Source: Candidatus Zixiibacteriota bacterium
Lineage (GTDB): Bacteria > Zixibacteria > MSB-5A5 > WJJR01
Assembly (NCBI GenBank): GCA_040752595.1
Contig: JBFMGX010000015.1
Span: 1 to 64,000 of the forward strand
DNA: 64,000 nt
Reading direction: 5' to 3'
Part shown: positions 2,098 through 42,302 of the stretch, one piece after another
Layout of the letters: each line of letters begins with the position of its first letter
How positions within the stretch are numbered: position 1 is the stretch's first letter
Translations under genes and position numbers: made by a program
Notes under the pieces: generated by a model
What the model saw: only the letters and a program-made list of their open reading frames with translations
Database searches by the model: none
Told to the model about the DNA's origin: nothing

Positions 2098-3462
2098 ATG
2101 AGTACACACGCGAACCAGTCGGAGCTCAACTCGTCGCTAGATCAGCTCTTCAGAAAAGTCACCGATGAGTTCAAGGAAGAACGCGCAAAAGAGTACGGAG
2201 ACCCAGAGACCAGAACGGCGAGACTTAAGCCGCCCGTTCTGAAGTTCATTCGTACTGCTCGCGAACATCTTGAGCGAGCTGGCGATGCCGACGCAGTCAA
2301 GTACGTTAAGGCTTTCGAATGGTACTGGACCGACCATTCGAAAGTCACCACCGACCAAGAGTCCGATGAGTTCATGCAAGAATGGTTCCGCAGGCGCAAG
2401 GACAACAATAAGGCACCGATTCTCCGCGTCCATGCGCTGTTCGAGAAGCTCAACAAGGACACCGAGGATCCACTCGTCGCGAAGCTCATCGGTGATCACA
2501 TCCAAATGATGCTTTTAGATGCATCGATCTCGAAGGATGGAAAGGGCGATTTCGGATTGATGCTGAAAGCGATGCTTCAACCTGCAGTGAAGCAGTTCTT
2601 TGGAATCTTCGACCGGAAGTTGGGTGACCGCTCCCAGAGAAAGCAACAAGTAGTCGCGCCGACCGCCGCTGTCATGGGCGAGGTAGCGAACAAGCTGGAC
2701 TCGGAGTCCCAGCCGCTCGCCGCGGCCTATCTGAGGGCCTTCGAAAACATGCTTGACGGAGCCCCTGACGATCCAGAGGACGCTCAGGCACACTCGGACG
2801 AAGTTGGTTCTCTTGTCCGAGATTGGGAGAAGGTGCGGAATCAGACTCCGGCCAGCGCAATTGATTCCGCACGAGTGGCCCTGGCACGGCACATGGAAAC
2901 TGTGGAAAAGGACGAAGTGCGAAACATGCTCGTACTGCAACTTCATCTAATGAAGTGTGACGCGGATGAAGCAGGAAAGGCTCGGCCCGATGTAACCCCC
3001 GAAGAGGAATCTTCACCTACAGTGCTTGGGATGCTTGTCAAGGTGGTCGGCACTGCCGCGTTCAAAACATACGACCGCGTCCGCTTCATCTTGGACAGGG
3101 AGATTCCGGGAGGAGCGGATACCGTTGACATCCCGACGTTTGTCAAGCTCTGCACGCTCAATGGAACACAGTTTTACAATTCGGTCGCCGATCTCAAACG
3201 CGAACATTACAAAATGGCGGCTACCGCGGCGGACACAAAACCACCGCAAGAGAAGGAAGATCCCATCCGCAAGATCGAACGCGAAGAGGCGGTGTGGACG
3301 GCACTTCACAAGCGGGCGGCACGATTCGCCAGACACAGGACGGAGCTCTTGGCGGGGCTCAAGAGGGAGTTGCGAGAAGCGGGATTCTCGGAAGAGGAAA
3401 TCCAAGACATGGTGGCCGACTTCGAACGGACCTTTGATGACCTAACAGGTGGAGACAAGTAG
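2098..3462 (+). CDS. Unknown protein with a tandemly duplicated helical domain, paired with a HerA/TraD-like ATPase
   Basis: 454 residues, start ATG 2098 with GGAGGG 7 bases upstream. No known family is apparent, but the protein contains an internal duplication visible by eye. Residues ~46-175 and ~187-332 align: DAVKYVKAFEWY with PLAAAYLRAFEN, then ESDEFMQEW with HSDEVGSLV, DPLVAKLIGDHIQMMLLDA with KDEVRNMLVLQLHLMKCDA, and a final LMLKAML...FFGIFDR with LGMLVKVV...FKTYDRV. The region from ~375 is highly charged and probably coiled coil. It has no signal peptide or membrane segment. The stop codon is followed after one base by the ATG of the ATPase gene, so the two are translationally linked and probably act together. 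Confidence 0.82.
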   Translation: MSTHANQSELNSSLDQLFRKVTDEFKEERAKEYGDPETRTARLKPPVLKFIRTAREHLERAGDADAVKYVKAFEWYWTDHSKVTTDQESDEFMQEWFRRRKDNNKAPILRVHALFEKLNKDTEDPLVAKLIGDHIQMMLLDASISKDGKGDFGLMLKAMLQPAVKQFFGIFDRKLGDRSQRKQQVVAPTAAVMGEVANKLDSESQPLAAAYLRAFENMLDGAPDDPEDAQAHSDEVGSLVRDWEKVRNQTPASAIDSARVALARHMETVEKDEVRNMLVLQLHLMKCDADEAGKARPDVTPEEESSPTVLGMLVKVVGTAAFKTYDRVRFILDREIPGGADTVDIPTFVKLCTLNGTQFYNSVADLKREHYKMAATAADTKPPQEKEDPIRKIEREEAVWTALHKRAARFARHRTELLAGLKRELREAGFSEEEIQDMVADFERTFDDLTGGDK

Positions 3463-3463
3463 C

Positions 3464-5215
3464 ATGGTACAAACAAAGCGCTTCAAACTTGGTAAGCACG
3501 CTCTCAAAGGGAGCGCTTTCACAGTCAAGGGCGACGAGCTTCAGACCCATGCCATGATCGTCGGTGGCACGGGTCGAGGGAAAAGTAAGTTTCTGGAATT
3601 GGCTGCGAGAAACTTCATCGAGTCAGAAACTCCCATCGTCGTCCTCGACCCCCACGGGGACACCGTCAAGAACATCTTACAGCACGCTACCGAACGACAC
3701 TTGGACAACCGAGTGGTGTGCATCGACCCCAACCAAGCCGTGGATGAGGCGGTCTATCCGCTCAACTTTTTACAGCGTACATCGGATGACATAGCGACGC
3801 ATGCCAGTCACATTATGCGGGCCATCGCCAAGGTCTTCGGTGAAGAGGACTCGCAGTCGAAGCCACGGCTTGAACGCCGCGAGCGTGCGACGCTTATGGC
3901 ACTCATTGAAGCGTCTTACTCGATGGCCGAGATGTTGCACTTCCTGTCGATCAGCGACCCACGATTCCGGCAACACGTGCTCAAGCGTGTAACGGACCCG
4001 TACGTGTTGTCCGAGTGGTCGGAGTACGACTCCATATCACGACGGGCCGAACGCGAACAGCTGCTGGAATCCTGTCTTAACCGTGCGGCGAAAATCATTC
4101 TCAACGAGCCGGTGAGACGCTGCTTGGGAGCACCATCCTGCAATCTCGACTGGGAAGATGTCGTTCGAAACAAGAAAATCGTTCTCGTGAATCTGCAACC
4201 GACGAAGGTGAGCCGGGAATGCATGCAACTCATGGGAATTCTGATTCTCGACCACCTGGTTCGGTTCGGAACGCGTTCAACCCGTCCTCTTAGTTCGCCC
4301 CTCTATGTATTGTGCGACGAACTGGATGAGCTCGCGAGTCCTGATCTGTCGTACGCACTGCAAGCACTTCGTAAGAGGCGCATTTTCGTCTGGGGGTGCA
4401 TTCAATATCTTGAGCAGCTTCGCACCCACGACACAACCTCGAAACTGTACCATTCCTTCATGGCGAATGCGGATCTCAAAGTCGTGTTTCACACGACATA
4501 TGAGGATGCCCAACTTCTCGTTCATGAATTGTTCGCCGGAGAGTTTCGCGGCGACATCGTGAAAGACGAGATCAAGAGAACGACTCCGATTCCCGTGGAA
4601 TCGGTCAGAAAGGTGTTCGGAACGACCGAGCATGAGAGTGCGACGCAGTCATCGGCGGACACAACAGGTTCTGCAGTATCGAGTAACACGGTTGACGTTG
4701 ACATGCGCTCTCACGCGCATGGTACGAATGAAATCCTCAGTCCTGACGGAACCATCGTTAGCCGGGGAGGCAGCGATATCGAGACGCGTGGAACGTCTAC
4801 TGCGCGAGGATCATCGGATGTGAGTAGCTCACAACACATGGAAGGGAGCGCACATACCGTGTCGCGCGGAAGTAGCGTTTCTGAAGTTCCCTTTTATGAG
4901 TACCTCTTGCGTCAGGAATTGACCAGCCGCACGTTCTATACGATCGAGGAGTTGACCGAGCAATTCATCGCGTTTCTCCAGTGCCAGCCGGAACGTCACG
5001 TCCAGATTAAGCTGAAGGATCGCAAGGGCGCACCGGTCGTGTTGAGCTTCGTGCACCCAACCCGAATACGGGAGAAACACGTTCTGAAACTCATTCATCG
5101 CAGTAACGAAAGAGTTGCGCTCCCGCCGCCTAAGGTGGATGCAATTCTGCACGAACGGTTGAAACTACCCGAGGCTGTCGAAGCAATCGAGGATGAAACA
5201 CCGCGCTGGGAATAG
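3464..5215 (+). CDS. Soluble HerA/FtsK-superfamily ATPase, TraD/VirD4-like (coupling protein type)
   Basis: 583 residues from ATG 3464. The Walker A is GGTGRGKS (34-41), followed by IVVLDPHGD (~58-66), a motif typical of VirD4/TraD and DUF87-type DNA pumps; the Walker B is LYVLCDEL (~280-287), and a later RKRRIFVWGC resembles the sensor strand. The usual N-terminal membrane helices of conjugative coupling proteins are absent, so this is a cytosolic form. Residues ~390-470 are a Ser/Thr/Gly-rich low-complexity linker before a C-terminal domain of ~115 residues. Known relatives move DNA using ATP. Its obligate-looking partner is the duplicated-domain gene just upstream. No relaxase or mating-pair genes are seen nearby, so conjugation is only one possibility. 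Confidence 0.85.
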   Translation: MVQTKRFKLGKHALKGSAFTVKGDELQTHAMIVGGTGRGKSKFLELAARNFIESETPIVVLDPHGDTVKNILQHATERHLDNRVVCIDPNQAVDEAVYPLNFLQRTSDDIATHASHIMRAIAKVFGEEDSQSKPRLERRERATLMALIEASYSMAEMLHFLSISDPRFRQHVLKRVTDPYVLSEWSEYDSISRRAEREQLLESCLNRAAKIILNEPVRRCLGAPSCNLDWEDVVRNKKIVLVNLQPTKVSRECMQLMGILILDHLVRFGTRSTRPLSSPLYVLCDELDELASPDLSYALQALRKRRIFVWGCIQYLEQLRTHDTTSKLYHSFMANADLKVVFHTTYEDAQLLVHELFAGEFRGDIVKDEIKRTTPIPVESVRKVFGTTEHESATQSSADTTGSAVSSNTVDVDMRSHAHGTNEILSPDGTIVSRGGSDIETRGTSTARGSSDVSSSQHMEGSAHTVSRGSSVSEVPFYEYLLRQELTSRTFYTIEELTEQFIAFLQCQPERHVQIKLKDRKGAPVVLSFVHPTRIREKHVLKLIHRSNERVALPPPKVDAILHERLKLPEAVEAIEDETPRWE

Positions 5216-5250
5216 CAGCGCTGGTGGTGTGCATAAAACTGAATAAGTAC

Positions 5251-5533
5251 GCCGTCTTGCCTCACCGTTGGCAGGGCGTTATAGAGTCTCAACACCCGTC
5301 CAAGGTAGTACAAGTCTCCACCTTGACGGGCTGCGCTCTTTTCGGCTGGTGGACAGCTTGCACCTGACCACAGCCTTCACCGGCTTGGCCTCGACAATCT
5401 CCGTTTGAAAGAGCATCCTCTTTCGCTCTCCGACTATCTCAGCTACTCCAGCCCTCTATGTTGGGTTGCCACGGGCGGAGAGGCAATCCAGTGAACGCCT
5501 CACCAGATTCATCCTTAAGCGCTGGAGAAAGGA
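5251..5533 (+). ncRNA. Structured 5' leader, copy A (unclassified RNA element)
   Basis: A ~283-base noncoding stretch upstream of the broken ssb that has a clear homologue at 6106-6382. Shared blocks include GTCTTGCC, GGCAGGG, CATAGAG/TATAGAG, CCAAGGTA, GTCTCCACCTTGACGG, CTTGGCCT and GCTACTCCAGCCCTCTATG. A hairpin is plain: CCGTCCAAGGT (5296-5306) pairs with ACCTTGACGG (5320-5329) with one bulged C. CTCCAGC (5446-5452) is exactly complementary to GCTGGAG (5521-5527), which abuts the AGAAAGGA ribosome binding site, so a long-range helix could mask or expose it. It could be a riboswitch-like or protein-binding leader; I do not recognise a class. Confidence 0.65.
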
Positions 5534-5543
5534 ATCGAGCGCT

Positions 5544-5930
5544 ATGAATCTGAACAAGGTCAGTCTCATCGGATAGCTCTCTGTCGATCCGTCCACTTCG
5601 AAGGACGCCTCCGGAAAGAGCGTCGTAACTTTCCCGCTGGTCACGTCGTACTCCTGGGACGACGCCGTCTCTGCGAGACGCGAGCACCTCTACGAAGTGC
5701 ATCCGGTTGTCGCCTACGGCAATCTCGGAACGATCGTCCAGAAGTATTTGAAGAAGGGCGACAGAGTGTACATAGAAGGTCGGCTGCAAAGACAGCAGTG
5801 CCGCAACGAGAAAGGTGAGAAGAGAACGTGCACGGAAGTTCTCGCGACGCAGTTGCTCATGCTGGGCGGCAAATCGAAGACCAGAGCGCCTAAAGACTCA
5901 GCTGAGGTCTCAACCGAGACCGCGAAATAA
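5544..5930 (+). pseudogene. Second SSB gene interrupted by an in-frame amber codon
   Basis: Starting at ATG 5544 the frame reads MNLNKVSLIG, then TAG at 5574-5576, then LSVDPSTSKD and on through an SSB core (EVHPVVAYGNLG, KKGDRVYIEGRL, CTEVLATQLLMLGGK) to the TAA at 5930. The amber codon sits where SSBs usually have Arg, Lys or Asn, so one base change (for example AAG to TAG) would explain it. The frame is otherwise intact for 117 codons, and a good Shine-Dalgarno lies upstream, so decay is recent, or the stop is suppressed, or it is a base error. A GTG at 5697 could give a 77-aa C-terminal fragment. Confidence 0.82.
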
Positions 5931-5940
5931 AAAGGGGGGC

Positions 5941-5972
5941 AGCGGAGAGGGTACATCCCTCTCCGCTTTTTT
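5941..5972 (+). terminator. Rho-independent terminator after the second ssb
   Basis: AGCGGAGAGGG (5941-5951) pairs perfectly with CCCTCTCCGCT (5957-5967) over a 5-base loop and is followed by a T run to 5972. It starts 10 bases after the ssb stop and separates this unit from the second structured leader. Confidence 0.92.
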
Positions 5973-6105
5973 CGTGCTCGTCAGAAAGTATTGAGCACGA
6001 TGTTCTAAGCGGTTACACCGATGCTGGCGTTCGCGCATCGGTGTGTTGTTTCATTCCCCACCCTGATTTTCAGCTCGCAAAGACTCCGGGACACCAAGCC
6101 GGGAC

Positions 6106-6382
6106 GCTGTCTTGCCGTAGGGCTTGGCAGGGTGTCATAGAGACTCAGTATCCGCCCAAGGTAAGAACGCTTCGCGTCTCCACCTTGACGGACAGCACCG
6201 ACCTTGGCTGATGGATATCCCTTGCTGAGATACCCACAGCAGGACGCCTTGGCCTGCAAAGACTCCGCTCTCCGAGCGAAATCTTCTTCGGCTACTCCAG
6301 CCCTCTATGCCATGGGAGGAGGGCAGGAACGGCAAACCAGCGTCAGCCATTCCGCTCTAATCATTCTCCGCTGGAGAAAGGA
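6106..6382 (+). ncRNA. Structured 5' leader, copy B (homologous to 5251-5533)
   Basis: This is the second copy of the leader described at 5251. The main hairpin is kept: CCGCCCAAGGT (6152-6162) with ACCTTGACGG (6182-6191), and here its loop carries an added mini-hairpin (ACGC-TTC-GCGT) that copy A lacks, as expected for a variable apical loop. The CTCCAGC block (6295-6301) again matches GCTGGAG (6370-6376) next to the AGAAAGGA ribosome binding site. The downstream gene is a 71-aa protein unrelated to SSB, so the leader is a portable unit rather than an autoregulatory site of one gene. Confidence 0.65.
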
Positions 6383-6392
6383 CCACACGTCC

Positions 6393-6608
6393 ATGGCATA
6401 CATAGACGGTGTTTACAAGCGCCTCGACGAGATCACGGGTGATCCTCGTGAGCCGATGAGCGACGTTCGCGACCGGCTCAAGGCGTTCATCGCCGAAGAG
6501 ATTCGGAAGTCGTTCTGGAACGGGGTCAAGTCCGGTTCGGGGCGGCGATCACGCTCTCCGAAAGACCAGCCAGTCTCGTCCGAGGAGGTGACGGTGTCCA
6601 AACAGTAG
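6393..6608 (+). CDS. Small protein of unknown function (71 aa)
   Basis: ATG 6393 follows an AGAAAGGA ribosome binding site inside the structured leader. The product starts MAYIDGVYKRLDEIT, has a helical middle (DVRDRLKAFIAEEIRKS) and a basic Ser/Arg/Lys-rich tail. I do not recognise it. Its leader is shared with the broken ssb, which suggests co-regulation with DNA-metabolism functions of the element. Confidence 0.65.
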   Translation: MAYIDGVYKRLDEITGDPREPMSDVRDRLKAFIAEEIRKSFWNGVKSGSGRRSRSPKDQPVSSEEVTVSKQ

Positions 6609-6677
6609 GGCACTGGCCGGCGCAGGCGGCGGCCAATCCGCCTGCACTCCAATCTAATCATTCACACGGTATCACGT

Positions 6678-6797
6678 ATGCGAAATCAGTACAACTCACC
6701 GAGCCTCTGGAGCTATATCCTCAAGGGGTTCATGGAGTTCGGCGTCGGAGTAGCAATCGTGCTCGGACTGCTACTCCTTCTCAAGGGCGGGCTCTAA
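6678..6797 (+). CDS. 39-aa single-span membrane micro-protein
   Basis: ATG 6678 to TAA 6797. The product has a short polar N-terminus (MRNQYNSPSLW), then a single hydrophobic helix rich in Gly, Val and Leu (about residues 16-36) ending in LLKGG. There is no strong Shine-Dalgarno (ACGGTATCACGT precedes it). Its stop codon lies inside the loop of the terminator at 6785-6809, which fits a deliberately compact last gene of the unit. The function is unknown. Confidence 0.5.
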   Translation: MRNQYNSPSLWSYILKGFMEFGVGVAIVLGLLLLLKGGL

Positions 6798-6809
6798 TCC
6801 CGCCCTTTT
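6785..6809 (+). terminator. Terminator overlapping the stop of the micro-protein gene
   Basis: GGGCGGG (6785-6791) pairs with CCCGCCC (6799-6805), followed by TTTT and a second T-rich run. The TAA at 6795-6797 is in the loop. Confidence 0.85.
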
Positions 6810-6957
6810 GTTCTTTTTTGCTCGCGGAAAATCTGCCCACCCAATCTCTTGCCGTGTAAGGCATTATCCCGTATTCTGTCTAGAGCGGCGGCATCCCTTG
6901 CGGTCAAGCCGTGTTGTGAACGCTTGGCCGGAGGGTTCCCGAAGGAGTGACAAATCT

Positions 6958-7869
6958 GTGCAAGACCCGCCACTGAAAATCGACTCGTTGGATTCAAGTA
7001 CATTTCCGAGACGTACTGACTATTCCAACGATCAAATTGCCCGCTATTATAGGGAAACTCGCTGGCAGTACCGTGGACTGTGGACCGGCAAGCGCAGCCT
7101 TGCCCTCCATTACGGCTACTCGGATGAGACTACTCGTGATCACGTGGATGCTCTCCACCGTATGAACGCTGTCCTGGCGGAACGAGCACGAATCTCCGCA
7201 ACCGATTCCGTATTGGACTCCGGATGTGGCTGGGGAGGATCCACAATCTGGCTCTACCAAAACCGAAAGTGTGATGCTCTCGGAATAACTCTCGAGGGCG
7301 AGCAAGTCGCAAAGTGCTGGGAGAAAGCTGAAGATGCCAAAGTCGCGCGGTACGTCAATTTCCTAAGGGCTGACTTCCACGACACGCCGTTCCGTGACGG
7401 TGCCTTCGACGTTGTGTGGGCGTTGGAGAGTTTCTGCCATAGCGACGACAAGCCGCGTGTCCTACGAGAAGCCCATCGTTTGCTGAAAAGAGGGGGACGG
7501 TTGATAGTTGCAGACTACTTCCGTGCAGCTCGTGACCTCAATGAACCAGCCGATTCACTCCTCAGGGTGTGGCTTGACCAGTGGGTCGTACCGGGACTTG
7601 ACACGATCCCGGAGTATACGACCTATCTTGTCCAAGCAGGCTTCGAAACGCTCGATGCAGAGGACATAACTGATCGGGTGCGCTTTTCCTCGCTCCTCCT
7701 CTATAAGAAGGGTTGCCGCCTTGCGCCCTTCGCACGCCTCCTGAACAAATTGCGTCCTTGGTTCTACACGGACATGAGCCACGCAAACTGGAGATCATCG
7801 ATCCTTCAGCACGAAGCGCTTGAGGCTGGCGCTTGGCGCTACGGCATTATACTTGCGCGCAAGCCGTAG
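6958..7869 (+). CDS. SAM-dependent methyltransferase (SMT / tocopherol-methyltransferase type)
   Basis: 303 residues from GTG 6958, chosen because GAAGGAG lies 10 bases upstream; a longer frame to 6808 overlaps the preceding terminator. The class I methyltransferase core is clear: motif I VLDSGCGWGGS, a LRADFHDTPF segment, motif IV AFDVVWALES and motif post-I LKRGGRLIVADYF. An LHYGYSDE segment before motif I is typical of sterol, tocopherol and terpenoid C-methyltransferases. It probably methylates a small hydrophobic molecule; the substrate is not predictable. It is cargo between the SSB region and the phage-type regulation region, followed by a membrane protein gene 37 bases downstream. Confidence 0.88.
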   Translation: MQDPPLKIDSLDSSTFPRRTDYSNDQIARYYRETRWQYRGLWTGKRSLALHYGYSDETTRDHVDALHRMNAVLAERARISATDSVLDSGCGWGGSTIWLYQNRKCDALGITLEGEQVAKCWEKAEDAKVARYVNFLRADFHDTPFRDGAFDVVWALESFCHSDDKPRVLREAHRLLKRGGRLIVADYFRAARDLNEPADSLLRVWLDQWVVPGLDTIPEYTTYLVQAGFETLDAEDITDRVRFSSLLLYKKGCRLAPFARLLNKLRPWFYTDMSHANWRSSILQHEALEAGAWRYGIILARKP

Positions 7870-7906
7870 TTTCTGAGGAAACGATAAGCTGTGGGGACCA
7901 ATACCC

Positions 7907-8989
7907 ATGCTAAGTCAAGAGATTCAAAAAGCCCAACCCCCTTATATCGCAATTCTCTCCCTATTCAGCTTTGGAGGCAGGCTCGGTCCGACGCTTGCAT
8001 CGGTAGTTCTCGCAGCCTTTGTATTCATCATGATGTTGTTGCTATCTCTGCTGGACCCCGGCCTCCAGAATGTTTGGTCACTAATAGACCTGCCTTTCTT
8101 GATCGCTGCAACTATAAGACTCACATCCGCAGGCTACTTCGCAGTCCTCAGGGAGGCGTCTGCAATCGAATCCCTTCTCGTGGAGGTTCCGCAGCGAGAT
8201 TGCGTCCGCCAGGTTCTCGTCGATATGTTTCGAGCACGCCTTCAAATGGTCTCTAGTTGGTTCTTTTCTCTCTTGATGGTCGGTTCACTCATTGTTCTAC
8301 GAGAACTCGTCGGTCTTCCCACCGTCTTTCAACAGCTAGGCACAATTGCGTTTTACAGTGGCCTCATTGGGGTATTTGTTGCGGGTTTCTTCGGCGGGTG
8401 GGGGTTTTGGCTGGTGACGTCAATGGTTCGATTCATTCTCGTGCTCGGCCGATTACCCGCGTTGCGCTTGGATAATTTGTCGCCTCACTCAACAGTTGGC
8501 CTGCAACGAGTCCAGAGCCTTGTTCGTCTCTTCGCTGTGTGTTATTCCGTTGGCGTCGTAGCTATTGGTATGCCAATCCTATTTCTCGAATGGTCTGCGC
8601 ACAGCCTCTTAGTACGGATCATCACAGTTTATCTCTGGCCGGTACTCTTTGGAGTAGGGCTTCTCGTTTTTCTATTGATTCTGCCGAGAGTCGTTTTCTC
8701 TCATCATGTACGTCTGAAACGGGATGCGAGCTTGACCAAACTCCAGGATCAAATTGAACGTATTATGTCTTCTCATTTGTCCGAGGCTGATACTGACGAA
8801 TTGGTCAAACTTGGAAAACTTCAAACTCAGCTTCTTGGTGCTCGTCTATCTCTTCTAGATCCCGGGGGGCTAATCACGTGGGTTTCAAGTCTCGGCATCC
8901 AACTCCCGTTTGTCGTTCAATGGTTCGATCGCGTGGGTCTCGACTGGAAATCCTTCATATCAAGAGTGGCTAGCTCAATCACGGGCTAG
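7907..8989 (+). CDS. Polytopic membrane protein of unknown function
   Basis: 360 residues from ATG 7907. Hydrophobic helices are visible near residues 32-53, 58-75, 117-135, 143-175 (probably two), 208-230 and 236-262, so about six or seven spans, then a soluble helical C-terminal part of ~100 residues (DQIERIMSSHLSEADTDEL). I find no catalytic or transport motif. It follows the methyltransferase by 37 bases with only a weak ribosome binding site, and the two genes together look like one cargo module. Confidence 0.72.
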   Translation: MLSQEIQKAQPPYIAILSLFSFGGRLGPTLASVVLAAFVFIMMLLLSLLDPGLQNVWSLIDLPFLIAATIRLTSAGYFAVLREASAIESLLVEVPQRDCVRQVLVDMFRARLQMVSSWFFSLLMVGSLIVLRELVGLPTVFQQLGTIAFYSGLIGVFVAGFFGGWGFWLVTSMVRFILVLGRLPALRLDNLSPHSTVGLQRVQSLVRLFAVCYSVGVVAIGMPILFLEWSAHSLLVRIITVYLWPVLFGVGLLVFLLILPRVVFSHHVRLKRDASLTKLQDQIERIMSSHLSEADTDELVKLGKLQTQLLGARLSLLDPGGLITWVSSLGIQLPFVVQWFDRVGLDWKSFISRVASSITG

Positions 8990-9059
8990 TCCTATCCGAT
9001 TGAGCCTATCAGCAAGAAGCGACATGGATTTCACATTCCAAACCAGCGCCTATACCGAC

Positions 9060-9641
9060 TCAGGCGGTCTCCACTGGCACGCCGAGATTGATCAGCCGAA
9101 ACACCATCGCCTCCAAACTCACCCGATACCGGGAAGCAAGTGGCTTTATGTCTGTGAGACTCCGTATCGGAACGGAAATACTCCGCTTCTCTATATCTGC
9201 AAAGAGCAAGTCCTGTGGCATCAGTAGAGCAGCCGCGAATCGGTTTGCCTCAATCTCGTGTGGATCCGTTGCCATCGAGGAGACCTTGTCCCTAAAGAAC
9301 CGCTTTCCGCTTTCCGTCTCCGCAGGCTTGGCGAGTTCGCCTGCATACTTCCTGTCAATGTAAATGCTGCCATCGTGTAGCACGAGATGGCCAATCTCAT
9401 GGGCTACGGTGAAACGCTGGCGCAAGCCATTGTCATTATTGTTCACGCCGATCACGCATTCGCCCGCACGCCGGTATAGAACACCAGACAGGTCACCTTC
9501 ATACGGTTCCTTGCGCACGGCAGCACCGAGCTTTCGCGCAATCCGTTCTACAGGAATTGGCGGAGAATCCACTCCGAAGTCGCCAAGAATCTTAGCGACC
9601 CGCTTCTCGATCCGCTCCTGTCCTATTGTCGCTTTTGCCAT
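9060..9641 (-). CDS. ImmA/IrrE-family zinc metallopeptidase
   Basis: 193 residues with the zincin motif AHEIGHLVLH and a downstream metal-ligand region EANRFAAALLMP, the two hallmarks of the ImmA/IrrE family. In ICEBs1-like elements and phages ImmA cleaves the neighbouring XRE repressor to start excision. That role fits here because the gene follows an XRE-type regulator by one base on the same strand, opposite an Xis-like gene and near the integrase. Confidence 0.92.
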   Translation of the reverse strand: MAKATIGQERIEKRVAKILGDFGVDSPPIPVERIARKLGAAVRKEPYEGDLSGVLYRRAGECVIGVNNNDNGLRQRFTVAHEIGHLVLHDGSIYIDRKYAGELAKPAETESGKRFFRDKVSSMATDPHEIEANRFAAALLMPQDLLFADIEKRSISVPIRSLTDIKPLASRYRVSLEAMVFRLINLGVPVETA

Positions 9642-9642
9642 A

Positions 9643-9993
9643 CTACTGCTCCGCGGTTATCGGTCGCCTGACCACTTTCGAAAGCCACTTCGCAAGCTTC
9701 GGGTCCTTTGCCAGTTCAGACTGAAGCGTTTCGTCCCCAGACGGAAACATATCCTCAACTGATGGTAGCAACCGCGCGGGGTCAACATCCAGTCCCCGGG
9801 CTATCAAGTACAGATGGTGAACCGCGAGTCGCTGTCTCCCTGATTCAATGTTTGCCACGGCTGAACGCGTCAATTCTCCACCCGTCCGATCCGCCAGTTG
9901 CTGTTGAGTCAACCGCCTGGCAGCGTTTCGACGGGCTTCCGCGATCGCTTTGCCCACCGTCCGGTACACGTGAGAGTATCCGCTCCGCTCCAT
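9643..9993 (-). CDS. XRE-family repressor, partner of ImmA
   Basis: A helix-turn-helix (LTQQQLADRTGGELTRSAVANIESGRQ) follows a short N-terminal helix, and ARGLDVDPARLLPS is the usual tail of such Cro/CI-type domains. ATG 9993 gives 116 residues; a longer in-frame start at 10059 (GTG) would run through the operator cluster and is less likely. It probably represses the divergent xis/int genes and is inactivated by the ImmA peptidase, as in ICEBs1 and related elements. Confidence 0.87.
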   Translation of the reverse strand: MERSGYSHVYRTVGKAIAEARRNAARRLTQQQLADRTGGELTRSAVANIESGRQRLAVHHLYLIARGLDVDPARLLPSVEDMFPSGDETLQSELAKDPKLAKWLSKVVRRPITAEQ

Positions 9994-9999
9994 CACGCA

Positions 10000-10083
10000 G
10001 TCAAGGAAAACCCGCACAAGAAATATGTCAAGGATAAACACAATGTGTCTATATGACACAATCTGAACGTCAAGAATCTTGAC
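10000..10083. promoter_or_regulatory. Operator/promoter cluster between the XRE repressor and xis genes
   Basis: The sequence GTCAAG recurs at 10000-10005, 10027-10032 and 10069-10074; the last is half of a perfect palindrome GTCAAG-AAT-CTTGAC (10069-10083). Between them is a second dyad, TGTGTC (10044-10049) TATAT GACACA (10055-10060). The rightmost site contains a TTGACA that could be a -35 box for the xis direction, although I see no clear -10. Repeated operators in a divergent repressor/xis gap fit a lysogeny-type switch. Confidence 0.6.
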
Positions 10084-10136
10084 ACGCCTTTCCGCCCGGT
10101 GTTTCTTGCAGTCGACACTCGAACCATGGGGGGCAC

Positions 10137-10328
10137 ATGAATCGGTTTCTCAGCGTCAAAGAACTCGCGGAAGTCCTGGGCGTCCCCGTCTCGTGGATCT
10201 ACGACCGAACCCGTCAGGGAGGACCCGAGCAACTGCCGCACTACAAGGTCGGGAAATACGTCCGGTTTTCGGAGGCGGAAATCGAAGAGTACCTCAAAGC
10301 CAAGAGTCAGCAGGCGGAATCGATTTAG
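10137..10328 (+). CDS. Excisionase-like helix-turn-helix DNA-binding protein
   Basis: 63 residues forming the small HTH_17/excisionase fold: FLSVKELAEVLGVPVSWIY, a basic turn, then a wing ending VGKYVRFSEAEIEEYL. Proteins of this size next to an integrase usually act as recombination directionality factors or local regulators. It is divergent from the XRE repressor and 164 bases before the integrase. Confidence 0.83.
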   Translation: MNRFLSVKELAEVLGVPVSWIYDRTRQGGPEQLPHYKVGKYVRFSEAEIEEYLKAKSQQAESI

Positions 10329-10408
10329 CTGATTGACCGCGACTGACCGAGCGGGTAGGTTCTATTCCGATGACTGCCCGCCACACCAGATCATGGAATC
10401 AGACACGC

Positions 10409-10440
10409 GCCCTGACAGTGCTCTTTATGAGCGTCAGGGC
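10409..10440 (+). promoter_or_regulatory. Hairpin in the integrase leader
   Basis: GCCCTGAC (10409-10416) pairs with GTCAGGGC (10433-10440), and inside it GCTC/GAGC extends the stem around a TTTAT loop. It lies between the xis-like gene and the integrase ribosome binding site and could attenuate integrase expression. No T run follows, so it is not a simple terminator. Confidence 0.5.
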
Positions 10441-10492
10441 ATTTGCGTCTACTCTCAAGCAAGCCACACCGAAGGGAGGTGATGACGACACA

Positions 10493-11649
10493 GTGGCAAA
10501 AGGAAGCGTCATTAAGCGCTCTGGAAGCTGGTACGCGGTCTATCGGGATGGCAGCAGACAGAAGTGGGAGAAGGTCGGAACGTCGAAGCGAACAGCCGAG
10601 AAGGTCCTGGCGGAACGTCTGGATCAACTCAATTCTGGTGGCTACCAGGAACTGACTCAGATTCGCTTCCGCGAATTCGCCGAGAAGTGGCTCAAGGACT
10701 ACGCCGAAGTCAACACCAAGCCGTCGACGTATCACTCGTACGTGGGCGTCATTCAGCTGCATTTGAATCCGTATCTTGGCGACCGGTGGCTCCACAAGAT
10801 TACCGCCGGACACATTCAGGAGATTGTCTCCACGAAGATCTCCGATCACGGTCTCTCGCCGAAGTCCGTTGGCAACGTCCTTGTTGTTCTCAAACGGATG
10901 TTCCAGCACGCCGTTCTCTGGGGCTACCTCAGACGCAACCCGGCCGCGCTCGTGCAGAAGCCGCGCGTTGAGCGTCAGGAGATGGACATCCTCAACCCCG
11001 AGGAAGTCCGGATCTTCCTGCAGCACGTGCGAGCCAAGCACTACGCCTTGTTCCTGACGGCAGTGCTCACGGGCATGCGCCGGGGAGAGCTTCTCGCCCT
11101 CCAATGGGGAGACATTGACTGGCGCTCGTCGCAGATCATCGTTCGACGGTCCCTGTACAAGGGACAGTTCACATCACCGAAGACGAAGTATTCTTGCAGA
11201 CGCATCGTCATGTCCAAGACCCTACAGGAAGCACTCCAGCAACACCGTCTGATTTCGATTCGCTCCGAGGACGACTTGATCTTCTGCAACGAGAACGGCA
11301 AACCTCTCGATCCCGACGACCTCGTCAAGCGGGAGTTCTTTCCCGCACTCGACAGAGCTGGCTTACACCGGATACGCTTCCATGATCTGAGGCATACCTA
11401 CGCTTCACTCCTGATCGCGCAGGGCGAAAACATCAAGTTCATCCAGCACCAACTCGGCCACGCGTCAGCGACAACGACGCTCGACCGGTACGGACACCTC
11501 ATGTCCGATCGGAACGTCGAAGCGGCAGAACGCCTCGATCAAACGGTTTTCGGAGGTTTTGTTAGAAAACTGTTAGAAAATCCGGAATCTGAAGGCATTC
11601 CCCAAAAACACGAACTCCCCGAAGTGTTTCCACTTCAGGGAGTTAAGCT

Positions 11650-11671
<22 letters not shown>
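10493..11671 (+). CDS. int: Tyrosine recombinase / integrase of the mobile element
   Basis: 392 residues from GTG 10493, selected because AAGGGAGGTGA (10472-10482) precedes it; the upstream in-frame sequence has no better start. The N-terminus is an AP2-like arm-binding domain (YAVYRDGSRQKWEKVGTSK), then the SAM-like core-binding domain, then the catalytic domain with R (TGMRRGELLAL), K (SPKTKYS), HxxR (HDLRHTYAS), H (QLGHAS) and the nucleophile Y (LDRYGHL). All catalytic residues are present. The last codons (GVKLGSGGRI) and stop lie inside the tRNA-fMet gene on the other strand, so integration regenerates the end of the integrase. Confidence 0.96.
11604..11644 (-). terminator. Terminator of the tRNA-fMet transcript, inside the integrase coding end
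   Basis: AACTCCC (11613-11619) and CGAAGTG pair with CACTTC and GGGAGTT (11638-11644) around a TTTC loop. On the minus strand the hairpin is followed within 4 bases by T5 (11608-11604). It is 5 bases from the tRNA 3' end, so it ends the tRNA transcript while also encoding integrase residues. Confidence 0.72.
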
Positions 11672-11726
<55 letters not shown>

Positions 11727-39303: not shown

Positions 39304-41352
39304 CTACCTCTTTCCGCCCCGTTTGCTCGTCGACCCGCCCTGGATCGGTCTTGTGAAACGACATCCCTTGGTTGCGAAGTTGGAGCAACCCCAGAACTTC
39401 CTGCCGAACTTGGAGCGAACGATCAGATAACCACCGCAATCTGGATTCACACACATCTCGGGGGATTGGAAACCGCTGGGCAACTCATCTTCCAGTTCCA
39501 AGTTTTTCAACACTTCTTTCACTGAAGACTCGCCCTCGACCCGCCACATGTGCTCGCCCGTTCCGCTGTGGCTGAGTATGTTGAGACTCCCGTCCCAGAG
39601 GATTCGGTCGTCAATGATGGCGGTCTTGAAATGCCTCCTGGACGTGTGGTACTCTTCGATGACTCTGACCCCTATGCCGCGCAGACTCCCGACAGCAATG
39701 CGTGACTGTTCAGCCATGACACCCTGTTGGCGATTGCTCGGCCATGTGTGCACATGTATCTCGACCCCGTTGGCGGCTTTTGATCGGAGAGTATCCATGA
39801 ACTTCGCGACTCTCTTCACGGTCAAGAACGGACTGTAAATGAAGACTCTCTTCTGAGCCGCACGGAAATCCTCGATGAATTGGGGCCAGAAATCTCTTTC
39901 AGTGTACTGGTCGACAGGGATTGGCTTCCGGATCGGGCCGCTATCAACGAGCAGCGCGTCAGCCCACCTCTCAAAGTCCGAACAAAAGTAGGGGTCAACG
40001 AGAGACTCAGATGGGATGATTTGGGCAGCCTGCAGGAGATGCTCGACGATTCTCGCCAAAACGGCATCCGATTTCAGACTCGAGATCAAATGGGTCGTAT
40101 TCCCGATGAAGTAGAAACGTTGTCTGCTCCGCGTGATTGCAACGTTCAAGAGCCTCGTAGGGTCAGAGTCCGCCTGACTACCTGACAACATCGGAGCCAC
40201 TCTTGTGCCAAGACCCTCGACGGAATCGAAAACGATGAATGGCTCCTCCCCTCCCTGAAATCTGTGAACAGTGCTGACACGGACGTGGTCTGACATGTCC
40301 CAATCTTGAGCGATCTTGTCTATGAGCCGTGCCTGTGCACCGTACGGCGCGATAATGCCGATCCTGGCGTCTCCGTTTCCCTCCTTCTCCCTCAACCTTG
40401 CCAATCCAGCTGTCATCTTCCTGGCCAGAGTCACGGCAAGCACCGCGTGGTACAGGTTGAAGCGACTCCCACCGGTAAGCCTGCTGCACCACGCCCCGAT
40501 ACCTCCTGTCTCGACCAGAACGAGAGGCGACCCTGAAACGCCGTCATTGACCGAAGGCACGCTGGTGACTTCCGCGTCCTTGAGAACGCCCCCGTAAAAC
40601 AAACGATTCGGAATGGCGGAAATGGCTGGATTCATCCGGTATTGCGTATCGAGGAGTCGGACACGAGAGTCCTTGGAGGCACCCTTCACGTCATGGACGC
40701 CCAGTACCTCGAACACGCTTCTTCCCAGCCACTTCTGTGCCATTGGTTCACGTGAGATGCATATCGGGGGTAGCTGCAGAAAATCCCCGACGACGGTCAC
40801 GAAATCCCGACAGCGCCCGGATGCCCAGAACAAGTGCGGGAGCGGTGCCATGCTGGCTTCATCTAAGACAAGTACGTCAAACGGAGCGTCCGGTAGCTGC
40901 CTGGCAGAAAATGTCTTGGTCAACGTCGTGGCTACAAGCCTTGCGTCGAAGAGGACACGTTTCTCTATCTCTTCGAGATTGGCGTTGATCTCCTCGATTC
41001 TCAGTGGAATCCAGTTCTTTCTCTCCTTGAGAAACGCATGCCGATCTTCTGCCTCACGCGCTGACACGCCCAGGTGTGCGAGTTGTCTCCCCGCCTGAGC
41101 ACACGCCTCCGCAGTCTGAGCTTCCATTGACTGTACGCGATTTCCTTCTTCATGTACGTGGGTCTTGTGCCGTTCCAGCTCATCTTCCTGATGCTCAATC
41201 CTCTCCCGTAACTGCTCGACATCGCGCAACAGCCGTTTAAAGTTGAGTCCTAAGATCCAGGCGCGCAAAGCGCCCGCCCTCGCCGCTTTGTCGAGCTGCG
41301 CGCCCATGCCCGCTCGAAGCGCAACGAGTTCCCTCAGCTTGTCATTCATCAT
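39304..41352 (-). CDS. Split helicase-nuclease, downstream part: SF1 helicase motifs II-VI, PLD nuclease, zinc ribbon (Mokosh type II-like)
   Basis: 682 residues from ATG 41352, which overlaps the stop of the upstream ORF as ATGA. Residues 1-110 are coiled coil; then VLVLDEASMAPLPHL (motif II), VVGDFLQLPP (III), LLDTQYRMNPAIS (IV), VSTVHRFQGGEEPFIVFDSV (V) and LNVAITRSRQRFYFIG (VI) of a COG1112/Upf1-like helicase. A phospholipase-D nuclease motif (SRRHFKTAIIDDRILWDGS) and a topoisomerase-type zinc ribbon (CVNPDCGGY...CSNFATKGC) follow. Helicase plus PLD in one chain is the architecture of Mokosh type II anti-phage defence. Walker A is missing here and is encoded by the upstream ORF. Confidence 0.85.
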   Translation of the reverse strand: MMNDKLRELVALRAGMGAQLDKAARAGALRAWILGLNFKRLLRDVEQLRERIEHQEDELERHKTHVHEEGNRVQSMEAQTAEACAQAGRQLAHLGVSAREAEDRHAFLKERKNWIPLRIEEINANLEEIEKRVLFDARLVATTLTKTFSARQLPDAPFDVLVLDEASMAPLPHLFWASGRCRDFVTVVGDFLQLPPICISREPMAQKWLGRSVFEVLGVHDVKGASKDSRVRLLDTQYRMNPAISAIPNRLFYGGVLKDAEVTSVPSVNDGVSGSPLVLVETGGIGAWCSRLTGGSRFNLYHAVLAVTLARKMTAGLARLREKEGNGDARIGIIAPYGAQARLIDKIAQDWDMSDHVRVSTVHRFQGGEEPFIVFDSVEGLGTRVAPMLSGSQADSDPTRLLNVAITRSRQRFYFIGNTTHLISSLKSDAVLARIVEHLLQAAQIIPSESLVDPYFCSDFERWADALLVDSGPIRKPIPVDQYTERDFWPQFIEDFRAAQKRVFIYSPFLTVKRVAKFMDTLRSKAANGVEIHVHTWPSNRQQGVMAEQSRIAVGSLRGIGVRVIEEYHTSRRHFKTAIIDDRILWDGSLNILSHSGTGEHMWRVEGESSVKEVLKNLELEDELPSGFQSPEMCVNPDCGGYLIVRSKFGRKFWGCSNFATKGCRFTRPIQGGSTSKRGGKR

Positions 41353-42302
41353 ATCCTGTTGCGCAATCGCCGAAGCCAGCTCAGATCGGGCACGCTCAAG
41401 ACTTTGACTCTGTTCCGCCGCGCACCGAAGCTTACCATAACAGGTTCAAGCTCGTGAAGGGTCTCGTCGATCCGTACCATCTCCTCCTGCAGCGCTGCTC
41501 GCTCTTCGATAAGCGGCTGTCCTTGGTGACGCGCAATGTTCTCTGGCCGAACCAATGGGAATCTCTCTGACAGGCTACTTCCGGGTGTTCCCAATCGGAC
41601 GAGCTTCCCCTCTTCGTAGAGCTCAGATCCGTTAAGATGCTTAGCGACATCGCAAAGGGCTTCATCAACTGCGTTGTTTGCATGGGAAACAAGGAGAACC
41701 CGTCGACCGAGGTGCAAGTGTGCCTCGACGGCTTTGGCTATGGTCCTCGTCTTGCCTGTGCCAGGGGGGCCCCAGATGATGCACAACTTTGACCCAACTG
41801 ACGACTCGGCGGCTCTCTGTTGCGGGTCGATGGCAGGGGACCTTGAGCCGTGGTCGCGAGCACCCGCTTCTCCACTCCGCTCCGATTCCCGCCTGCTGGA
41901 AAACAGAAATTCTCCCAGACGGAAATCGGATTTGAGATTTCCGTTAACCACTTCGGCGTACTTGTCTCGAAGTAGTTTGAGCAAATACCACAGATTCGTA
42001 TTCAGCACTGCCTCGGGAATGAACTGACTGCAGTTCTGCTCAATCCCGATCTCGACTTCCAGTCCACGTGCCACCAGCACACGGGCTTGATACCGATGTC
42101 CGCGGATTTCGATCTCCGCAGGTGCCTCGTCGAGCACCGCTAGGAAGTTCTCCAAGTGAAAGACGTAAACGAAAAGCCCTGACACTTCACGCAGGAATCG
42201 GCCGTTGAAGATCCTGATGAAGCTACCGCCCTGGCCCTTCTTGATCGCTGCGATCTCTTCGTCGAGGGCTTGGATGAATTCTCTGATTATAGCGAGATCC
42301 AC
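41349..42302 (-). CDS. Split helicase-nuclease, upstream part with Walker A
   Basis: 317 residues: an N-terminal domain of ~165 residues followed by the SF1 motif I IIWGPPGTGKTRT (Walker A at 178-185) and motif Ia RVLLVSHANNAVDEAL, then predicted helices. It lacks motif II onward. The last ~25 residues (GARRNRVKVL...) are poor protein, whereas the -1 frame from about 41448 down to ATG 41352 is open and encodes good coiled coil (AAEQSQSLERARSELASAI) leading straight into the next ORF. This points to a single-indel frameshift near 41425-41448 in an originally ~1000-residue protein. A deliberate two-subunit split through ATGA coupling is the alternative. Confidence 0.82.
   Translation of the reverse strand: MDLAIIREFIQALDEEIAAIKKGQGGSFIRIFNGRFLREVSGLFVYVFHLENFLAVLDEAPAEIEIRGHRYQARVLVARGLEVEIGIEQNCSQFIPEAVLNTNLWYLLKLLRDKYAEVVNGNLKSDFRLGEFLFSSRRESERSGEAGARDHGSRSPAIDPQQRAAESSVGSKLCIIWGPPGTGKTRTIAKAVEAHLHLGRRVLLVSHANNAVDEALCDVAKHLNGSELYEEGKLVRLGTPGSSLSERFPLVRPENIARHQGQPLIEERAALQEEMVRIDETLHELEPVMVSFGARRNRVKVLSVPDLSWLRRLRNRI

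Follow-up and report, generated by a model that had tools for sequence, protein, structure and literature searches.

Two overlapping open reading frames (ORFs) lie next to parB on the minus strand of the 64,000-nt stretch of DNA analysed here (the window). The upstream ORF (42302-41349, 317 aa) begins with GTG 10 nt past parB and encodes an N-terminal domain, Walker A (GPPGTGKT, 41771-41748), motif Ia (SHANNAVD, 41687-41664), the initial portion of a coil, and a 31-residue tail, probably not in the ancestral frame, that ends at TGA. The downstream ORF (41352-39304, 682 aa) encodes the remaining coil, SF1 motifs II-VI (DEAS, 40863-40852; GDFLQLPP, 40788-40765; QYRM, 40644-40633; TVHRFQGGE, 40272-40246; NVAITRS, 40146-40126), a PLDc_2 domain with an intact HxK(x4)D(x6)GSxN motif (39633-39580), and a C4 zinc ribbon with its four cysteines within 39453-39361; all of these features are on the minus strand. 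Pfam family AAA_11 was divided between the two ORFs, with profile positions 4-104 on the upstream ORF and 110-257 on the downstream ORF, where the C-terminal part was followed by AAA_12, PLDc_2, and a weak match to a topoisomerase-type zinc ribbon. Across both ORFs, every SF1 motif, the PLD motif, and the four cysteines were undamaged, and no further stop codons were found in 2 kb. The ORF coordinates, strands, ATGA overlap, and motif distribution agreed with a preliminary description of the locus.

The two ORFs overlap as ATGA (41352-41349, minus strand), and AGGA is located a few bases 5' of this overlap; together they form a possible termination-reinitiation site. Both frames are open on the minus strand over 41446-41353. 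As had been described, the -1 frame is open before the second ATG, its 31 codons running from the TGA immediately 5' of 41446 as far as the ATG at 41352, and in the overlap it reads as a helix continuous with the downstream ORF. The open -1 frame alone was considered weak evidence because 51.5% of 31-codon stretches in the window genes were also open in that frame. Little weight was likewise given to the ATGA overlap, since any TGA stop automatically brings an NTG codon with it in the -1 frame.

The six full-length relatives found for the gene were all single open frames of about 1030-1155 aa, from other genera and mostly from other phyla. The closest one in the genome collections was a 1086-aa protein from a Calditrichota MAG (L004, QQUE01000004.1), which has the same architecture as the split gene and is collinear with it (36% identity with the upstream ORF and 35% with the downstream ORF), but has an intact frame. 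Five relatives (L004; L002, from the same class; L018, L019, and L020, from other phyla) were inspected, and each proved to be one ORF (1027-1154 aa) that carries motif I, the coil, motifs II-VI, and PLD in the same frame, and the sixth (L049, from the genus of L018) was open across 1101 codons. The long helical coil of the relatives falls exactly at the break point of the window gene. A natural two-ORF homologue with the window junction was not found among the approximately 1170 genomes sampled. Alignment with intact proteins, a check that the preliminary description had proposed, thus gave one unbroken frame as the ancestral state, and the single-frame organization of all six full-length relatives argues strongly for a one-frame helicase-PLD ancestor. 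No relatives were found in phage records. Viral contigs gave no match with the L004 query and only generic helicases with the alignment of the relatives, and plasmids contained only partial helicase relatives. The relative on plasmid2 of Nostoc sp. HK-01 (L021:2670-5303) is annotated as two CDS, yet the protein alignment crosses both in one frame, which suggests an in-frame stop and an independent break of a different kind.

The position of the frame break was estimated by joining the frames, for search purposes only, at each codon of the overlap and scoring the products with a profile of five intact relatives. Reading the -1 frame through the overlap gave 790-791 bits, compared with 782 bits for the +0 frame (a gain of 8.5 bits). 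The joined-frame scores remained at 788-791 bits for a change placed at 41445-41403 and fell to 782 bits near 41355. For calibration, off-frame translations were put in place of 31-residue segments from the coils of the relatives themselves, and the products were scored with leave-one-out profiles; the replacement cost 9.9±6.8 bits, and in 8.6% of the controls it cost nothing. Codon usage preferred neither frame, as the two frames scored -1.5 and +0.5 in the overlap (real frame, 9.4±5.7; off-frame, -7.4±6.0), placing both between coding and non-coding values, and the change-point curve was flat throughout, its shallow best point lying near 41384. By the profile scores, most of the overlap was probably read in the -1 frame ancestrally, and the shift may sit anywhere within about 41446-41400 of the dual-frame stretch. 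The location of 41425-41448 that had been suggested earlier was therefore too narrow, as the profile score was flat from 41445 to about 41400 and codon usage was flat as well. The coil continuity claimed for the -1 frame was favoured by the profile over most of the overlap; the arguments from openness and from ATGA added little. The relatives and the profile agreed with the central claim of the preliminary description, namely that a single ancestral helicase-PLD gene was divided into the two ORFs by a net -1 change within the coiled coil.

In the AlphaFold model of L004, helices were predicted at residues 284-363, 377-432, and 436-474, between motifs Ia and II, with pLDDT values of about 54-81 (mostly near 70-80, and about 54 at the turn). 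The model as a whole was too poor for a fold search because its overall pLDDT was 52. The window junction maps to L004 residues of about 312-340, inside the first coil helix. A break inside a long helical hairpin, as predicted by this poor model, would suit a natural two-chain variant in which the downstream chain is made by reinitiation at ATGA and the chains reassociate through the antiparallel coil, so that Walker A is brought together with Walker B in trans. Such a variant would also fit the ATGA overlap near AGGA and the intact state of both halves, and the downstream ORF retains a start codon, a possible Shine-Dalgarno sequence, and 682 codons without interruption, which would be in keeping with a working two-chain gene and runs contrary to what a broken gene suggests. 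Against it, no relative shares the window junction, an arginine-rich tail containing proline has taken the place of about 31 ancestral helix residues, and ATGA is frequently expected after a -1 shift. On balance this arrangement is regarded as quite unlikely. Its fuller form, a split SF1 helicase whose translationally coupled Walker A and Walker B chains are linked through a hairpin of coiled coil and deliver the PLD nuclease, is held to be distinctly improbable. We know of no working design in which RecA1 is split between Walker A and Walker B.

The overlap was also inspected for sequences that could produce a full-length protein by programmed -1 ribosomal frameshifting or transcriptional slippage, an option raised in the preliminary description. 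The frames are related by -1 and share about 94 nt, in line with recoding, but the final 120 nt of the upstream ORF contained no in-frame canonical X XXY YYZ heptamer, the overlap had no homopolymer longer than 3, and the relatives require no recoding; recoding is accordingly considered very improbable. The same lack of homopolymers longer than 3 bears on sequencing or assembly error, by which the living organism would keep one intact frame. The assembly is a draft in 50 contigs, and an error of one nucleotide would give an identical appearance with all motifs intact. When 64 conserved, collinear genes of the contig (about 20,000 codons) were compared with ORFs of a same-genus contig, however, zero two-frame pairs were found, and on these two grounds the error hypothesis was lowered to unlikely. 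Given the lack of a slippery heptamer and of any homopolymer longer than 3, and the 64 unbroken genes, a real and recent mutation is favoured over both a programmed shift and a sequencing error.

Comparison with known systems was based on PADLOC profiles and Pfam and TIGRFAM models, beginning with Mokosh, to whose type II the gene had been likened. The anti-phage proteins of Mokosh type I (MkoA/MkoB) and type II (MkoC) share an SF1 helicase and a PLD nuclease with the split gene, and a PLD-like domain is given for both types in a review table (PMC10952713). The downstream ORF matched MkoC at 1e-35, and the two halves matched MkoA at 2e-33 and 2e-15. The MkoC alignment covered positions 777-1120 of 1136, which is under a third of the profile, and the upstream ORF, although it matched MkoA, gave no MkoC match at E 0.1, so neither ORF matched across most of MkoC. 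The intact relative L004 also matched MkoC only partially (857-1109), and the MkoC profile alone is not diagnostic, as it had matches in 11 of 14 control genomes. In the window gene, Walker A is in a different frame from Walker B and PLD, whereas the intact relatives do carry helicase and PLD in one polypeptide. Unlike Mokosh, the window gene occupies two frames, has no partner, and lies outside a defence cluster; none of the ten window neighbours provided an association with defence genes. Because a single chain and a match over most of MkoC were both lacking, the gene was not filed as Mokosh type II, and the likeness is one of resemblance, not membership; it would work, or have worked, in the manner of a Mokosh-type helicase-PLD fusion.

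The helicase core is shared with the IGHMBP2/SMUBP-2-Upf1-type SF1B helicases (TIGR00376), from which the split gene differs in its much longer coil and in the added PLD and zinc ribbon. TIGR00376 matched the downstream ORF with an E value of 1e-29, and the two ORFs scored 46 and 103 bits, far below the curated cut-off of 349. The best solved structures for the relatives' profile were SMUBP-2 (4b3f/4b3g) and UPF1, and this group serves as the structural reference for the helicase core; the coil would correspond in position to subdomain 1C in the Upf1-like helicases.

In a genome of the same genus, rsmG, mnmG, parA, and parB are contiguous, matching the mnmE-mnmG-rsmG-parA-parB side of the window. 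Synteny stops exactly at the end of parB (window 42313), where the following gene differs; none of the window genes tested downstream of parB follows parB in that genome, and its rmuC is located on another contig. The end of parB (42313) may be a site of gene turnover. None of the other genomes examined from the same genus and family contained the helicase-PLD gene, and 132 genomes of the phylum yielded a single relative. The GC3 of the split gene was 0.62-0.65, about 1-1.4 sd lower than the window-gene mean of 0.73±0.07. Horizontal gain at the synteny break fits the absence from the genus and family, the lower GC3, and the end of synteny at parB, and the gene was probably acquired horizontally next to parB. 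A scan of ten window neighbours gave no credible defence match, only subtilase and OmpA/MotB-like cross-matches, so the earlier placement of the gene away from a defence island holds for these neighbours.

Two other gene neighbourhoods were recorded during this survey. Window positions 2098-11726 form a block of lower GC3 (0.51-0.68) that encodes a DUF87/T4SS-type ATPase, a methyltransferase, and a tyrosine integrase (10370-11671, plus strand), the 3' end of which overlaps a tRNA-Met gene (11650-11726, minus strand); from its gene content, the block looks like an integrative element in tRNA-Met. The L018 relative (L044:2015-7930, G272) has a defence-like neighbourhood: genes for CARF-RelE, CARF-HEPN (Csx1/Csm6-like), and a UvrD helicase lie beside it, as in type III CRISPR signalling. 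The other relatives' neighbourhoods that were examined were housekeeping, by mutS/lptD, dnaX, and thrS.

The reading that is considered probable is that of an ordinary, horizontally acquired SF1 helicase-PLD-zinc ribbon gene whose frame was recently broken by a real mutation. One SF1 helicase of the Upf1/SMUBP-2-like kind, joined to a PLD-family nuclease and a zinc ribbon, would have been gained beside parB, and a net one-nucleotide frame change in the first coil helix, between motifs Ia and II, would then have broken its reading frame. The break appears to be young, given that every motif has survived and that 2 kb of sequence hold no further stop. Its predicted products would be a 317-aa chain that has Walker A and lacks Walker B and, perhaps by reinitiation at the ATGA overlap, a 682-aa chain that has Walker B and PLD and lacks Walker A; helicase-dependent activity would presumably be lost. 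In the intact state, the helicase may load on nucleic acid and bring the PLD nuclease there; this mechanism and a role in defence are inferred from the domain content and the resemblance to Mokosh.

The split gene is a real but ordinary feature of this genome; most likely it is a helicase-PLD gene that was acquired horizontally and whose frame was recently broken. Should the two chains cooperate, a RecA-like ATPase domain would here be naturally divided in an unusual way. If the gene is broken, it is a caution against annotating such a locus as a functional Mokosh system, and it would be one more horizontally gained helicase-nuclease, possibly for defence, that was lost or became polymorphic soon after its gain.
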